From Bacteroidia bacterium (GTDB lineage Bacteria; Bacteroidota; Bacteroidia; JANWVE01), in contig JANWVW010000008.1 of the NCBI GenBank assembly GCA_025056095.1, forward strand, positions 1 through 32,723: 32,723 nucleotides of DNA. Reading direction: 5' to 3'. Position numbers and translations under genes: made by a program. The notes under the pieces were generated by a model. That model saw only the letters and a list, made by a program, of their open reading frames with translations, had not been told where the DNA came from and ran no database searches. Numbering within the stretch: the stretch's first letter is position 1; the number at the start of each line of letters is the position of its first letter. Positions 3,207-29,560 of the stretch are shown one piece after another.

Positions 3207-3761
3207 ATGAGGTATTTTATCATCACACTTTGGCTTGTATTTACGTGGAACTTACCTTGCTATGCTCAACCAGAAGTTTCTTTTGAAGAGAAGAAAAAAA
3301 TTGCTCAAAGTTATGGCTATATGCAAGATAAGGCAGAGAACATAGAAGCTATTTATCTAATCCATTTGTTGAGAGAAAACCCTTTACTTCCTCAAAGTAG
3401 AGATTTGAAACTCAAACTATTTGCTTGGATCCAGGATACTGATGATGTAGTTGTATATTACGATTCGCCAGAAGCCAAAGAAATAGAAATTTCTTCTTTT
3501 CAGTATAAAAAAGAACTCCTTCAGCAATACCTCAATGGATGCTGCATTTATGATCTCACTCATCCTGACAAAATTAAAGATCCAAGGGCAGACGTGGACA
3601 TGGGAATGAAATTTGTTTGCGAAGCATACGAAAAAATTATCTCTACTACTAACACACCTTCACATTACTATTTTGAAGCTCAATGCGAAAAGTATCTTGG
3701 ACGCAGAACTGCAAAAGGTATTGCAGAAGCTAAAAGTAAAAAAAATACTGAAAAAAAATAA
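3207..3761 (+). CDS. Secreted protein of unknown function
   Basis: I do not recognise this 184-residue protein. The first 21 residues (MRYFIITLWLVFTWNLPCYAQ) form a clear signal peptide with an Ala-x-Gln type cleavage site; an earlier TTG start at 3180 would put charged residues ahead of it and overlap the promoter box. The mature part is mainly helical and charged (SFEEKKKIAQSYGYMQDKAENIEAIYL), with three cysteines in the second half (two adjacent, in NGCCIYD) and a Lys-rich tail (AKSKKNTEKK). It converges on the asparaginase gene with a 7-base gap, and no terminator separates the two. A periplasmic or exported location is the only safe inference. Confidence 0.8.
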   Translation: MRYFIITLWLVFTWNLPCYAQPEVSFEEKKKIAQSYGYMQDKAENIEAIYLIHLLRENPLLPQSRDLKLKLFAWIQDTDDVVVYYDSPEAKEIEISSFQYKKELLQQYLNGCCIYDLTHPDKIKDPRADVDMGMKFVCEAYEKIISTTNTPSHYYFEAQCEKYLGRRTAKGIAEAKSKKNTEKK

Positions 3762-5510: not shown

Positions 5511-6050
5511 TTACCAATCTGACATACTGGCGTGCATGTTCGGAGAATAAATGACAAAATAAGAGCGAATAGTATTGTTAGTACGTACGAATTCGTCGGT
5601 AAAAATAGATTTATCTTTCCATTCATTTTTGTAATATTCTATATAATTGCCATTTTTATCTTGAAAAGTGTATCGAGTTTGTGTATAGAGCCTTGATCCT
5701 GTGTAAATATTTTCTTTTTTTATTTCTGAACCATAAATGGACTGTAAGTATCCTAATATAGCATCAGCGTCGCCTTCTTTATCTTCGCGAAGAGTAACTT
5801 TGACTTTGACAAGCTTATTATCTTTGTAAAAGTACAGTATATTATGTAACCTAACTCCATTGATAAATTTAGGGTCTTTTCTATCTTCATAGCCATCATA
5901 GGATGCTATGCCATCACTTTCAGTTTCAGAATACTCTCTATTAGGTAAAGCGGAAACAGAACTACCCCACACTTTTCCCCTGAAAGCTTCCTGAGCATAC
6001 ATAGATAACAAAAAAGCACACTTAATAGCTAGTACAAGCCATACCTTCAT
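5511..6050 (-). CDS. Secreted protein of unknown function
   Basis: A 179-residue protein with a signal peptide, MKVWLVLAIKCAFLLSMYAQ, cleaved after Ala or Gln. The mature part contains FRGKVWGSSVSALPNRE, reminiscent of small periplasmic proteins that open with FRG.xWG.s, and a middle strand region rich in Tyr (LHNILYFYKDNKLVKVKVTL). The function is unknown. The start at 6050 is chosen because the upstream codons of the longer frame are themselves the TAnnTTTG promoter box. It heads the group lipoprotein-ansA, 42 bases after the PorE-like gene. Confidence 0.78.
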   Translation of the reverse strand: MKVWLVLAIKCAFLLSMYAQEAFRGKVWGSSVSALPNREYSETESDGIASYDGYEDRKDPKFINGVRLHNILYFYKDNKLVKVKVTLREDKEGDADAILGYLQSIYGSEIKKENIYTGSRLYTQTRYTFQDKNGNYIEYYKNEWKDKSIFTDEFVRTNNTIRSYFVIYSPNMHASMSDW

Positions 6051-9950: not shown

Positions 9951-10553
9951 ATGCACACGTTTAACATTGGAGATAAAGTAGCACTTATCCATGAAAAGTC
10001 AGCAGGAGTGATAACTAACATACAAGATAATCTTATCACTGTACATATTCAAGATATGGACATGGAGATTGAAATAGACGCTAAACTAATTATGTTAGTA
10101 GAAAAAGCCCCTGCACCACAAAAAGAATCCCAAAAAGACCAAACCAATCTACAAATTTCAGAAAATCAAGAAATTGCAGAAAAAATAAAAATTCTCAAAC
10201 AAGCGGGTATAGGCTACCAAGCAAAAGAGATAAAGACAACCAAAGATAAACCCAAATTAGCTACAGAAATAGACTTGCACTGGGAAGTACTTCAAAAATC
10301 TAACCCAATTTATGCTAAAATACCTAATGATGATGTGGATGAAATATTTAGAATACAGCGTTTAGAATTTGAAAATTTCTTTTTGCGAGCTCTACAATAC
10401 AATCTCAATAGCATAAGTATCATACATGGTATAGGTTCAGGCAAATTAAAAGAATACATTCATGCGTACATTAAACGACACGAAAAGAACGTTGATTCCT
10501 ACCAAGTAACAAATGATGGTGGATTAACCCAAGTAATTTTTAAGGCAGAGTAA
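9951..10553 (+). CDS. DUF2027/Smr-domain protein
   Basis: A 200-residue protein of the MutS2-tail-like Smr group. The N terminus (FNIGDKVALIHEKSAGVITNI) is a small beta-barrel as in DUF2027 proteins; a Gln/Lys/Glu-rich linker spans about 50-100; the C-terminal Smr domain has the EIDLHW motif (the usual DLHG with Trp for Gly) and the IIHGIGSGKLKEYI loop. Smr domains are DNA- or RNA-nicking or binding modules; the DLHx and HGxGxGxLr motifs bear the candidate active-site residues. No MutS ATPase part is present. It stands 56 bases upstream of recF in the same direction, and the two may be co-transcribed. Confidence 0.88.
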   Translation: MHTFNIGDKVALIHEKSAGVITNIQDNLITVHIQDMDMEIEIDAKLIMLVEKAPAPQKESQKDQTNLQISENQEIAEKIKILKQAGIGYQAKEIKTTKDKPKLATEIDLHWEVLQKSNPIYAKIPNDDVDEIFRIQRLEFENFFLRALQYNLNSISIIHGIGSGKLKEYIHAYIKRHEKNVDSYQVTNDGGLTQVIFKAE

Positions 10554-12068: not shown

Positions 12069-13082
12069 ATGGCTAAAAAAGCACAGGTCAAAAAAGATGA
12101 ATATACTGCAGAGTTTTTGCTCAATTGGTATGAGCAAGCCCTTCTGATGCGCAAATTTGAAGAAAAAGCAGGATTTATCTATCAAACACAGCAAAAAATA
12201 AGAGGTTTTTGCCACCTGTACATTGGGCAAGAAGCCGTAGCCGTGGGCGTAGCCGCAGCCCTTCGCCCCGACGATTATATGATTTCTGCGTACAGAGAAC
12301 ATGGACAAGCCTTAGCTAAGGGAATGTCTGCTAATAGTATCATGGCTGAACTGTACGGTAAAATTACAGGTTGCTCAAAAGGAAAGGGGGGCTCTATGCA
12401 CTTATTTTCAAAAGAACATCGCTTTATGGGCGGACATGGCATTGTAGGTGGACAAATTCCCTTGGGCGCAGGGATTGCCTTCAAAATTAAATACATGAAA
12501 GAAGATAGTGTCTGTGTATGCTTTATGGGAGATGGCGCAGTACGCCAAGGATCATTTCATGAAACTTTTAATATGGCTATGCTGTGGAAGTTGCCGGTGA
12601 TATTTATTTGCGAAAACAATCTGTATGCAATGGGAACCTCCGTAGAGCGCAGCTCTAATGTTACCGACATTTACAAGTTAGGTTTAGCGTATGACATGCC
12701 CTCTGAACAAGTTAATGGAATGAAAGCAAGGGATGTTTATGAAGCTACCAAAAAATACGTAGAATTAGCTCGTAAAGGGCATGGACCAGCCTTTTTGGAA
12801 GTTAGAACCTACCGTTATCGTGGGCATTCTATGTCTGACCCTGCTAAATACAGAACCAAAGAAGAACTAGAGCAGTTTAGAAATCTTGACCCTGTCATGG
12901 ATCTCAAACGCGAAGCCATAGAAGCAGGTGCTACCGAAGCACAGTGCCAAGCCATAGAGCAAAAAGTTAATCAAATTGTAGAGGAGAGTGTAAAATTCGC
13001 CGATGAATCGCCCTTTCCTACGCCTGATGAACTTTACAAAGATGTGTATGCAGAACCAAACTATCCTTTTATAAACTACTAA
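12069..13082 (+). CDS. pdhA: Pyruvate dehydrogenase E1 component, alpha subunit
   Basis: A 337-residue thiamine-diphosphate enzyme subunit that decarboxylates pyruvate in the pyruvate dehydrogenase complex. The TPP-binding motif is GDGAVRQGSFHETFNMA...ICENN (GDG to NN), and the E1-alpha marks YRGHSMSDPAKYRTKEE (phosphorylation-loop region) and GSMHLFSKEHRFMGGHGIVG are intact. The Lys-rich start (MAKKAQVKKDEY) is placed at 12069 because a promoter box lies 4 bases upstream. The beta subunit (pdhB) and E2 are not next to it: a terminator and a tRNA on the other strand follow. Branched-chain E1-alpha is an alternative but the length and motifs favour PDH. Confidence 0.93.
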   Translation: MAKKAQVKKDEYTAEFLLNWYEQALLMRKFEEKAGFIYQTQQKIRGFCHLYIGQEAVAVGVAAALRPDDYMISAYREHGQALAKGMSANSIMAELYGKITGCSKGKGGSMHLFSKEHRFMGGHGIVGGQIPLGAGIAFKIKYMKEDSVCVCFMGDGAVRQGSFHETFNMAMLWKLPVIFICENNLYAMGTSVERSSNVTDIYKLGLAYDMPSEQVNGMKARDVYEATKKYVELARKGHGPAFLEVRTYRYRGHSMSDPAKYRTKEELEQFRNLDPVMDLKREAIEAGATEAQCQAIEQKVNQIVEESVKFADESPFPTPDELYKDVYAEPNYPFINY

Positions 13083-13705: not shown

Positions 13706-14689
13706 ATGATAAAAATTGCCAATCCTGCGTATGACGTTGTATTCAAGTATTTGATGGAAGATAACAAAATTGCCAAGCTACTTTTATCGGATTTATTGCA
13801 GGAAGAGATTATTGAACTTGAAGTCAGACCGCAGGAATACATAATGGATGTTATTTCCATGACTGTGTATCGCATAGATTTTAATGCTAAAATAAAGAAC
13901 GCCGATGGCACAGAAAAAGTAGTCTTAATAGAAGTACAAAAAGCTAAATTTCCTACGGATATTTTACGGTTTAGGCGGTATTTAGCAGAACAGTACAGGG
14001 CAGAACAAAACTTGATGAGAACAGAAAAAGATAGGTTCAAAGCTTTACCGATTATTAGGGTATATTTTTTAGGTTATCCCTTGTCAAGCAATCCACCGTA
14101 TCCTGTAATCCGCGTACGCAGGAGTGTTACGGATAACAGCACGCAGGAAGTCATTGACATAAAAGATGAGTTTATTGAGTCTTTGACACATGATTGTGTG
14201 ATAGTACAGATACCGAAGTTAAAAGAGACACGGCGAAATGAGTTAGAGATGATATTGTCTTTGCTTGATGAGCAGGAGTATAAGTATGAGATTAGTATCA
14301 ATGAGGAGGATTATCCTGAGCGGTATCGTGAGGTAATAAGGCGGTTGTTGAAGGCAGCTGCGTCGGAGGAGGTAAGGAAGAGCATGGAGATAGAGGATGA
14401 GATAATAGAGAGTTTTAAGATGGTAGAACGAGATAAAGAGAAATTAGCAGAGGAATTAAAGTGGGAAAAACAACGTGCAGAACAAGAAAAACAACGCGCA
14501 GAACAACAAAAACAACGCGCAGAGCAAAAAGAAAAAGAACTAGAGCAAGAAAAGCAACGCGCAGAACAGTTAGAGCAAGATAAAATCAATATGATAAAGG
14601 AGATGCTCAAACAAGGTATATCCAAAGAGGTAGTCATGCAGATTGCCAAAGTAGACGAAGTATTTTTAAGAAAACATAATTTGATGTGA
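13706..14689 (+). CDS. Rpn-family PD-(D/E)XK nuclease / putative transposase
   Basis: A 327-residue protein of the Rpn (recombination-promoting nuclease, formerly transposase_31/PD-(D/E)XK transposase) type. The opening NPAYDVVFKYLMEDNKIAKLLLSDLL is typical, and the nuclease core is visible as YRIDFNAKI (Asp) followed by VVLIEVQKAKFPTDILRFRRY (the E-x-Q variant). Residues about 253-287 are heptads of EKQRAEQ type, predicted coiled coil, and the end (MIKEMLKQGISKEVVMQIAKVDEVFL) resembles the small helical tail of this family. Known Rpn proteins promote RecA-independent recombination and cleave DNA. It is the sole cargo of the inverted-repeat unit 13456-14942 and has its own -7 box; no stop or frameshift is seen. 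Confidence 0.88.
   Translation: MIKIANPAYDVVFKYLMEDNKIAKLLLSDLLQEEIIELEVRPQEYIMDVISMTVYRIDFNAKIKNADGTEKVVLIEVQKAKFPTDILRFRRYLAEQYRAEQNLMRTEKDRFKALPIIRVYFLGYPLSSNPPYPVIRVRRSVTDNSTQEVIDIKDEFIESLTHDCVIVQIPKLKETRRNELEMILSLLDEQEYKYEISINEEDYPERYREVIRRLLKAAASEEVRKSMEIEDEIIESFKMVERDKEKLAEELKWEKQRAEQEKQRAEQQKQRAEQKEKELEQEKQRAEQLEQDKINMIKEMLKQGISKEVVMQIAKVDEVFLRKHNLM
14465..14569 (+). repeat. 21-base tandem repeat in the Rpn-family gene
   Basis: Five consecutive 21-base units code the heptads EKQRAEQ, EKQRAEQ, QKQRAEQ, KEKELEQ and EKQRAEQ. The period equals one coiled-coil heptad, so copy-number change would keep both reading frame and coiled-coil register. Confidence 0.85.
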
Positions 14690-21081: not shown

Positions 21082-21732
21082 TTACAGCAAATTTTTCTGA
21101 TGATCAGCTAAAAATTTTTCTAAACCTATATCAGTTAAAGGATGACGAAATAGCTGCTCTATGACACTAAAAGGCATAGTCGCTACATCTGCTCCGACTA
21201 AAGCTGCTTGCAATACATGCAAAGGGTGCCGAATGCTGGCTGCTAAAATTTCTGTTGCAAAACCATAGTTGTCATAAATAGTTCGGATTTGTTCAATAAG
21301 CTGCATTCCTTCTGTGCTAATGTCATCTAATCTACCTATAAACGGGCTAATGTAGGTAGCCCCTGCTTTTGCCGCTATTAAAGCTTGTGTAGCACTAAAA
21401 CAAAGTGTACAATTCGTTTTTACGCCTTGTTGATGAAAATACTGAATAGCTTTTATACCGCTTTTGGTTAAAGGAATTTTGATAACGATATTATCCGCTA
21501 TTTCTGCCAAAGCTGAACCTTCTTTTATCATTCCTTCTAAATCTGTGGCAATTACTTCGGCACTTACAGGTAGTTCTTTAAGTAAAGCGCAGATAGTTTT
21601 ATAGTGTTGCTCATAATTTTTTACACCTTCTTTTGCCATTAGGGAAGGATTAGTAGTTACTCCGTCTAAAATGCCCATGCTTGCCGCTTCTTCAATATGT
21701 TTAAGATTAGCGGTATCTATGAAAAATTTCAT
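21082..21732 (-). CDS. tal: Transaldolase / fructose-6-phosphate aldolase-like
   Basis: A 216-residue enzyme of the short (TalC-like) transaldolase group that moves a dihydroxyacetone unit between sugar phosphates in the non-oxidative pentose phosphate pathway. Visible marks are [54 protein letters not shown] (the Schiff-base Lys lies in this strand), [32 protein letters not shown] and [30 protein letters not shown] place the start at 21732, where a TAnnTTTG box lies 5 bases upstream; the longer frame adds 19 unlikely residues. Whether it acts as true transaldolase or fructose-6-phosphate aldolase cannot be told from sequence. It diverges from fusA. Confidence 0.93.
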
Positions 21733-28434: not shown

Positions 28435-28481
28435 TATTTAAGTTTGAAAGATAGTAAAGATAGTTTTATGATTATTTTTTT

Positions 28482-28586
28482 GGGCGTGCCCCTTGCTAAC
28501 GCAAGGGTCGGGGCATTCCGCACATAGCCCGAAGCACGCCGACCTTGTGGGCATGAGCGAAGCGAAACGCCCACAAGGGCACGCCC
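28482..28586 (-). repeat. Palindromic GC-rich repeat, copy E (short form)
   Basis: A complete 105-base unit, inverted relative to copy D: GGGCGTGC; CCCTTGC-TAAC-GCAAGGG; TCGG with a 27-base arm and CCGA; CCTTGTGGGC with a 16-base loop and GCCCACAAGG; GCACGCCC. T7 precedes and A5 follows. It lies between the convergent tsaD and UPRTase genes, ending only 9 bases from the latter's stop. Confidence 0.92.
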
Positions 28587-28595
28587 AAAAATTCA

Positions 28596-29525
28596 TTATC
28601 CTATCCTTTTACCTAATGCTAAATCACCTGCATCGCCCAAGCCTGGTATAATGTAAGATTGTATGTTCAATTCAGGGTCAATAGCTACTGTCCATATATG
28701 CGCTTGCGGCAAATTTTCTCTAATATACTGCACACCATAACGACTAGCAATAATAGATACCATGTGAATGGCTTTGGGCATGCCGTAGGTTTTAAGAGCA
28801 TTTACCGCTGCTATTAAAGTACTGCCCGTAGCTAACATAGGGTCAAGTAGAATTAAAGTCCTGTTATCTAGTTCAGGAGTGGCTACGTATTCCAAACGAA
28901 TTTCAAAATCATGATTGTAGGTCGTTTTACGGTAAGCAGCTATGTAAGCATTGTCTGCTTGTTCAAATATATTCAAAAAACCTTGATGCAAAGGCAAACC
29001 CGCTCGTAAAATAGAAGCTAAAACAGGCTGTTGGCGTAAAAACTTACCTTGTGTAGCAGAAAGAGGTGTGTCAATATATTCAGTAGAATACTCCAAATGC
29101 TCACTGACCTTATAGGCTAAAATCATCCCTAAACGCTCTACATTATTCCTAAATTTAGCGCGATCTTGCTGTGTGTTTAAGTTACGAAGCTCTTGCAGAT
29201 ATACATCGGCAATAGAAGTTTTGTCAGAAAGGACATGAATTTTTTCGTCTAAAACTAAGTGTCCTGAAAAACTCTGTTGTGTAATTTTTAAGGTTTTTTC
29301 AATTGTACAGATGCGTTCGCCTGCTTGAATGGTTTTGTCTTTTTCTACGTACCAACGGGTCAAAATTCCTGATGTGTCAGCTTCAACAGCTAAAAAGTCT
29401 TTTTCAAAAGATAAGGTACATATTACCTCGCCTTCCTTGACAAAATCTCCGATTTTTCTGTGAATAGATTCTACTTTGTAACTCAAAAAATGATGGGGCG
29501 CAGCTATTTCTACTGTGGAGTTCAT
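28596..29525 (-). CDS. upp: Lipoyl-like domain fused to uracil phosphoribosyltransferase
   Basis: A 309-residue fusion. Residues about 1-80 are a biotinyl/lipoyl-type barrel: VEIAAPHHFLSYKVESIHRKIGDFVKEGEVICTLSFEKDFLAVEADTSGIL aligns with E2/E3-type lipoyl domains, and Lys42 in FEKDF stands where the modified Lys of the usual DKA motif lies. Residues about 93-309 are a full UPRTase (uracil plus PRPP to UMP): VERLGMILAYKVSEHLEY, LRAGLPLHQGF, the PRPP loop LILLDPMLATGSTLIAA and the uracil loop SYIIPGLGDAGDLALG. A promoter box ends 4 bases before the ATG, which supports this start and so the fusion. Usual UPRTases are about 210 residues. Whether the Lys is lipoylated, biotinylated or unmodified is unknown. 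Confidence 0.9.
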   Translation of the reverse strand: MNSTVEIAAPHHFLSYKVESIHRKIGDFVKEGEVICTLSFEKDFLAVEADTSGILTRWYVEKDKTIQAGERICTIEKTLKITQQSFSGHLVLDEKIHVLSDKTSIADVYLQELRNLNTQQDRAKFRNNVERLGMILAYKVSEHLEYSTEYIDTPLSATQGKFLRQQPVLASILRAGLPLHQGFLNIFEQADNAYIAAYRKTTYNHDFEIRLEYVATPELDNRTLILLDPMLATGSTLIAAVNALKTYGMPKAIHMVSIIASRYGVQYIRENLPQAHIWTVAIDPELNIQSYIIPGLGDAGDLALGKRIG

Positions 29526-29529
29526 GATA

Positions 29530-29560
29530 CAAAGGTAAGAGATAATCTCTTAAATTTCAA
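29530..29560 (-). promoter_or_regulatory. Promoter of the lipoyl-UPRTase gene
   Basis: On the minus strand TTG (29558-29560), a 20-base spacer and TACCTTTG (29530-29537) match both boxes. The -7 box ends 4 bases before the ATG, so the mRNA should be leaderless or nearly so and the N-terminal domain belongs to the protein. Confidence 0.75.

Follow-up and report, generated by a model that had tools for sequence, protein, structure and literature searches.

The window analysed here – 32,723 nucleotides of a Bacteroidia genome (assembly GCA_025056095.1, contig JANWVW010000008.1, positions 1 to 32,723) – encodes on its reverse strand a uracil phosphoribosyltransferase (UPRTase) joined at its N-terminus to a domain of the lipoyl/biotinyl type. 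Both Pfam families lie within one frame of 309 residues and the same fusion recurs in two sister species, so that the fusion proposed in the earlier note is borne out. The elements of the gene are these:

28596–29525 (−): upp-like fusion ORF of 309 aa, barrel plus UPRTase, open from the ATG with both Pfam families in one frame
29295–29525 (−): Biotin_lipoyl-fold (barrel-sandwich hybrid) domain, residues 1–77, recognised by PF00364, by the lipoyl/biotinyl regions of sucB and PRK07051, and by its predicted fold
29385–29411 (−): hairpin tip, residues 39–47, the lysine site in true carriers; 0/9 residues invariant in the genus
29400–29402 (−): codon of Lys42, which is Glu in sister L034 and Thr in sister L035
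29244–29294 (−): linker, residues 78–94 (17 residues), 82–88% identical in the genus and not Ala/Pro-rich
28596–29243 (−): UPRTase, residues 95–309 plus stop, 89–91% identical in the genus
28821–28844 (−): PRPP loop DPMLATGS, residues 228–235; D228, P229, M230, A232 and G234 invariant over 27 UPRTases
28623–28655 (−): uracil-binding loop YIIPGLGDAGD, residues 291–301; Y291, I292 and P294–D301 invariant over 27 UPRTases
29530–29537 (−): TACCTTTG, a Bacteroidota −7 box with 4 nt between its end and the ATG; a leaderless mRNA is predicted

The catalytic part matches PF14681 across residues 109–301 (E = 5.7e-42, Pfam) and the NCBIfam uracil phosphoribosyltransferase model PRK00129 above its cut-off (7.5e-60); it scores 178 bits against the stricter profile TIGR01091, below the cut-off of 208. 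A search of solved structures by sequence returned UPRTases. The domain begins at about residue 95, which is the start point of stand-alone Bacteroidia enzymes (about 216–230 aa), and is about 45–52% identical to them; it shares with stand-alone Upp (PF14681, PRK00129) the full catalytic domain and differs in the presence of about 94 additional N-terminal residues, namely barrel and linker. The conserved residues of the PRPP loop (D228–G234) and the uracil loop (Y291–D301) are common to 26 other UPRTases, and with these profiles and loops in place the enzyme is intact, as had been claimed from the letters. Its invariant active-site residues suggest that it would be catalytically normal, converting uracil and PRPP to UMP and PPi. 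It is, moreover, the only convincing UPRTase in each of the three genomes: a second, ordinary upp was sought in the genome and none found, the other PF14681 matches being weak, local and presumably to other phosphoribosyltransferases (the one in genome G001, at 26.4 bits, or 27.1 with neighbours, barely touches the cut-off of 27).

The chain of UPRTases that are activated by GTP in the manner of the Sulfolobus solfataricus enzyme ends at a conserved C-terminal glycine, and residues beyond this glycine are a trait of UPRTases without GTP/CTP control of that type (PMC3570474). The fusion proteins run on for 3–4 residues past the corresponding glycine, G305 (GKRIG or GKKI), and by sequence they fall outside the S. 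solfataricus type.

A central issue is the identity of the N-terminal domain. In the full protein PF00364 (Biotin_lipoyl) is matched at residues 9–75 with 32.8 bits (E = 6.1e-8, Pfam; curated cut-off 22.1 bits), and the cut-off is passed in all three genus members (32.8–36.8 bits); taken alone, the N-terminal domain matches over 68 residues with E-values of 2e-9 to 4e-9. NCBIfam matches fall on the lipoyl regions of sucB-type E2 proteins and on a biotinyl carrier (PRK07051), while the search of solved structures returned lipoyl and biotinyl domains. The domain search thus upholds the family assignment made in the earlier note. AlphaFold2 was run on residues 1–89 with an alignment of the three fusion sequences only; the best of five models (pLDDT 86, the four others being poor at 42–51) is all-beta and seven-stranded, residues 41–42 forming a hairpin turn. 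It resembles the BCCP of P. horikoshii (5gua) with Z 14.3 and an rmsd of 1.0 over 71 residues, and both Foldseek and VIA-align group it with BCCP and lipoyl domains: the flattened beta-barrel of this family is what the best predicted model gives. The likeness to E2 lipoyl and BCCP biotinyl domains (PF00364) is therefore one of sequence profile, predicted fold and hairpin position.

An artefact of annotation or frame is ruled out, because the ATG, the box upstream of it and the full frame are kept in three genomes. The sequence upstream of the fusion in the window reads TACCTTTG-TATC-ATG; each of the three species has a TAnnTTTG −7 box separated from the ATG by 4 or 5 nt, farther upstream the sequences have diverged, and the three proteins all begin MN(S/T)TVE. 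The argument that a promoter box four bases before the ATG speaks against misannotation of the domain is in this way strengthened by comparison. In Flavobacterium the −7 box lies at −12 to −5 (PMC9723704), and transcription is thus predicted to start at the ATG or one base before it.

The distribution of the fusion is narrow. The same full-length protein, 85% and 81% identical to that of the window, is encoded by two other genomes of the genus, the only others of the order examined. Among the matches listed in a protein search of 395 Bacteroidia genomes there was no other fusion, nor was there one in a profile search of 395 Bacteroidota genomes (E ≤ 1e-72), full-length matches occurring in the genus alone in both; about 48 stand-alone upp loci, unusually long open frames included, showed no barrel by lipoyl/biotinyl profile, and no relative of the fusion was found in viral contigs. 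Phyla beyond Bacteroidota were covered by an exact-pattern scan of 84,980 species, which diverged fusions could escape; its only matches were the two sisters and a single locus in Clostridia. The survey that the earlier note had called for therefore yielded the fusion in two sister genomes and nowhere else in the Bacteroidia and Bacteroidota samples. We found no fusion of this kind described in the open-access literature searched. Real and unusual, it gives a known enzyme a new domain architecture in one lineage.

Whether the barrel carries a cofactor hinges on residue 42. The earlier note had placed Lys42 at the modified position of a possible swinging arm, and as to register it was right: in profile alignments Lys42 falls on the modified lysine of the E2 and BCCP domains of its own genome. 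The lysine itself is peculiar to the window species. In the sisters the hairpins read SNAENCIAV (L034, Glu) and EHDTNILSI (L035, Thr), with no lysine nearby, and conservation of Lys42 in homologous fusions – a test set beforehand – fails accordingly. Neither the DKA/DKV motif of lipoyl domains nor an MKM-like biotinyl motif is present in any of the three species, which have EKD, AEN and DTN. The hairpin at 39–47 is the least conserved stretch compared; hairpin and beta1-beta2 loop together have 1 invariant column in 15, against 37 in 62 for the remaining columns of the domain (Fisher p = 1.7e-4). In true lipoyl domains recognition by E1 is chiefly a matter of the half that bears the beta1-beta2 loop and the lysine hairpin, and the lysine lies opposite the sheet bearing the termini (PMC6270654). 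These being the elements that have drifted, the carrier face of the barrel has drifted while its terminus-side end has held.

Genuine carriers provide the positive control. Over the same three species all nine hairpin residues are invariant both in BCCP (EAMKIFNEI) and in E2 (ATDKVDSEV), and a second E2, found in two of the genomes, has the identical sequence ETDKATMELES in both. Since the controls keep hairpin and lysine, the comparison is able to recognise a carrier that is being maintained, which the fusion is not. Most likely cofactor attachment is not a function of the genus as a whole, and the barrel would have lost, or never had, a carrier role. Compared with E2 lipoyl and BCCP domains it is without the conserved lysine and without a DKA or MKM motif, its hairpin and E1-facing loop have drifted, and its host enzyme has no acyl- or carboxyl-transfer chemistry; with the lysine missing from both sisters, the idea of a swinging arm is left unsupported.

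Lipoylation in the window species alone is unlikely. It would mean that Lys42 is lipoylated (or biotinylated) there and that UPRTase bears a true swinging arm, for which one may cite the register of Lys42, the acidic residue E41 that precedes it, and LipA, encoded in the window genome, so that machinery for lipoate synthesis exists at least in that genome. Yet the sisters lack the lysine and their hairpin is unconstrained, no neighbouring gene for acyl transfer is conserved, and Lys42 is followed by Asp, where lipoyl domains usually have Ala or Val (PMC6270654). We consider a true carrier in the window species highly improbable, and we extend as little credence to its more specific form, in which a lipoylated Lys42 would be a redox- or acyl-sensitive arm tying UMP synthesis to 2-oxo acid metabolism and the sisters would have lost the site.

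A non-carrier barrel is nonetheless not a decaying one. All three copies are open and nearly equal in length despite near-saturated synonymous divergence (pS 0.60–0.86 for barrel and UPRTase, 0.62–0.86 for the barrel alone); pairwise pN among the three genomes is 0.17–0.28 for the barrel and 0.05–0.06 for the UPRTase. The barrel is under purifying selection, looser than that on the enzyme, given that the copies are intact and pN is well under pS. By simple pairwise estimates over the three genomes, dN/dS is about 0.21–0.26 for the barrel, where computable, and 0.04–0.05 for the UPRTase. A difference of this size, about four- to sixfold, is also compatible with a passenger under loose constraint: a barrel acquired by a chance fusion, harmless, and kept only because it has to fold without interfering with the UPRTase. 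The restriction of the fusion to one small genus and its unconserved gene context agree with such a history. On the other hand no member of the genus has lost the barrel, and the linker and the terminus-side half are conserved more strongly than folding alone would obviously need: 9 of 10 residues are invariant in 24–33, as are all of 52–58 and 73–83, and the linker is more conserved than the barrel. A mere passenger is on balance unlikely.

The linker is instructive in another respect. Flexible linkers of E2 swinging arms are rich in Ala and Pro; that of the fusion is conserved and of different composition. The earlier note had left open a regulator or a structural remnant; the conservation of linker and remaining domain speaks for a structural or regulatory role that has been kept, rather than for a remnant in decay. 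We therefore regard it as probable that the barrel is a lineage-specific module of lipoyl/biotinyl type, no longer or never a carrier, fixed as a structural or regulatory accessory to UPRTase; the absence of the cofactor lysine from both sister species makes a repurposed structural or regulatory piece the most likely reading. Counted against it are the small number of genomes (three) from which the fusion is known, neighbours that differ in all three, and the low confidence of the barrel in a full-length model (pLDDT about 45–69).

How might such an accessory act? In this genus the barrel, joined to the N-terminus of UPRTase via the conserved 17-residue linker, would remain folded and most probably pack by its terminus-side end and the linker against the UPRTase oligomer, a contact that we infer, the barrel being of low confidence in the full-length model. 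In this role it would adjust the stability, oligomeric state or regulation of the enzyme. Oligomers of UPRTase vary in size from dimers to tetramers and beyond, and in some of these enzymes effectors work via the oligomeric state (PMC3570474).

There is precedent for a domain of this kind without its cofactor. Plant BADC proteins, BCCP-like but devoid of the motif for biotinylation, take part in the assembly of a complex (PMC11926652); the likeness lies in a lipoyl/biotinyl-type domain that has no modification site and a non-carrier role. The analogy is one of principle only, BADC proteins being separate subunits of acetyl-CoA carboxylase whereas the fusion barrel sits on a nucleotide-salvage enzyme. 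The same precedent of unmodified BCCP-like proteins in assembly can be enlisted for a docking role, in which the barrel, as a mimic, would tether UPRTase to 2-oxo acid dehydrogenase, acetyl-CoA carboxylase or another partner. Its fold is indeed close to lipoyl and biotinyl domains, and the two E2-like proteins and one BCCP of the window genome are possible partners, but the face used in E1 recognition, made up of beta1-beta2 loop and lysine hairpin (PMC6270654), is precisely the part that has drifted, and docking seems to us distinctly improbable. The BCCP gene accB, one of the positive controls for a carrier lysine that is kept, happens to lie on the same contig (window 420–923, minus strand; biotinyl domain 435–656), some 29 kb away from the fusion.

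As regards origin, the full-domain similarity would derive the barrel from lipoyl/biotinyl domains, among which profile scores do not separate BCCP from E2: in the profile search the BCCP and one E2 of the same genome score about equally (21.6 and 19.3 bits). A different source was considered in the C-terminal domain of pyrimidine nucleoside phosphorylases (PYNP/DeoA, PF07831). This beta-hammerhead, barrel-like domain is itself an accessory without cofactor on a pyrimidine-salvage enzyme, and might have been left on UPRTase by a deletion within a deoA-upp operon. Each of the three members does have a weak PYNP_C match (best E 0.00057), and the Clostridia locus retrieved by the pattern scan (L036, JAFVYN010000083.1) has a PYNP-like ORF, starting near 2429, directly upstream of upp, near 3753. 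We reject this locus as a fusion, its upp being a stand-alone gene beside the PYNP-like one. The C-terminal domain of the PYNP-like protein contains HKKIGDFVKEGDVL, almost identical to barrel residues 22–35, a hammerhead-turn motif common to both. The resemblance ends with this GD-turn stretch: the PYNP_C match covers about 18–26 residues against 68 for Biotin_lipoyl, none of the three genomes contains any PYNP_C match above the cut-off (the window protein scores 16.2 bits against 27, over the local stretch 21–38 and not the full domain), and the predicted barrel is all-beta. The PYNP domain, besides, is C-terminal and on a different enzyme. Descent from it is very unlikely indeed.

Our preferred reading, a barrel recruited as an accessory to UPRTase, has a bearing beyond this genus. 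It is a clean example from nature of a lipoyl/biotinyl-type barrel retained, without cofactor, by a metabolic enzyme to which it is unrelated, and offers a small, testable system for the recruitment of such domains as structural or regulatory modules. A Pfam match to 'Biotin-requiring enzyme' together with an in-register lysine in one species is not proof of a carrier; that inference was overturned here because sister species were compared.

Other features of the surroundings deserve mention. In L034 the fusion gene has guanylate kinase and PrsW genes as neighbours; in L035 its neighbours are Tex and a member of the phosphorylase superfamily. Short gaps between −7 box and start codon recur in the window, where, of the 29 ORFs with 120 aa or more, 5 have TAnnTTTG exactly 4 nt before the ATG: 5511–6050 (−), 9951–10553 (+), 12069–13082 (+), 13706–14689 (+) and the fusion itself, 28596–29525 (−). 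In a further ORF, 21082–21732 (−), the gap is 5 nt. Leaderless mRNAs are predicted for these genes in view of the 4–5 nt spacing. Across the genome there are 288 sites with a gap of 4 and 155 with a gap of 9, for which controls using the backward pattern give 89 and 69; the excess at gap 4 is roughly 130 sites. Very short or leaderless 5′ ends are reported at 3.7–5.5% in other Bacteroidota, and the excess seen here may be no higher than that. Finally, a GC-rich stretch resembling an inverted repeat (GGGCGTGCCC...GGGCACGCCC, noted by eye) lies at window positions 28480–28590 amid AT-rich surroundings, in the gap that separates the fusion gene from a convergent tsaD-like gene; it may be a terminator serving both genes or else a dispersed repeat.
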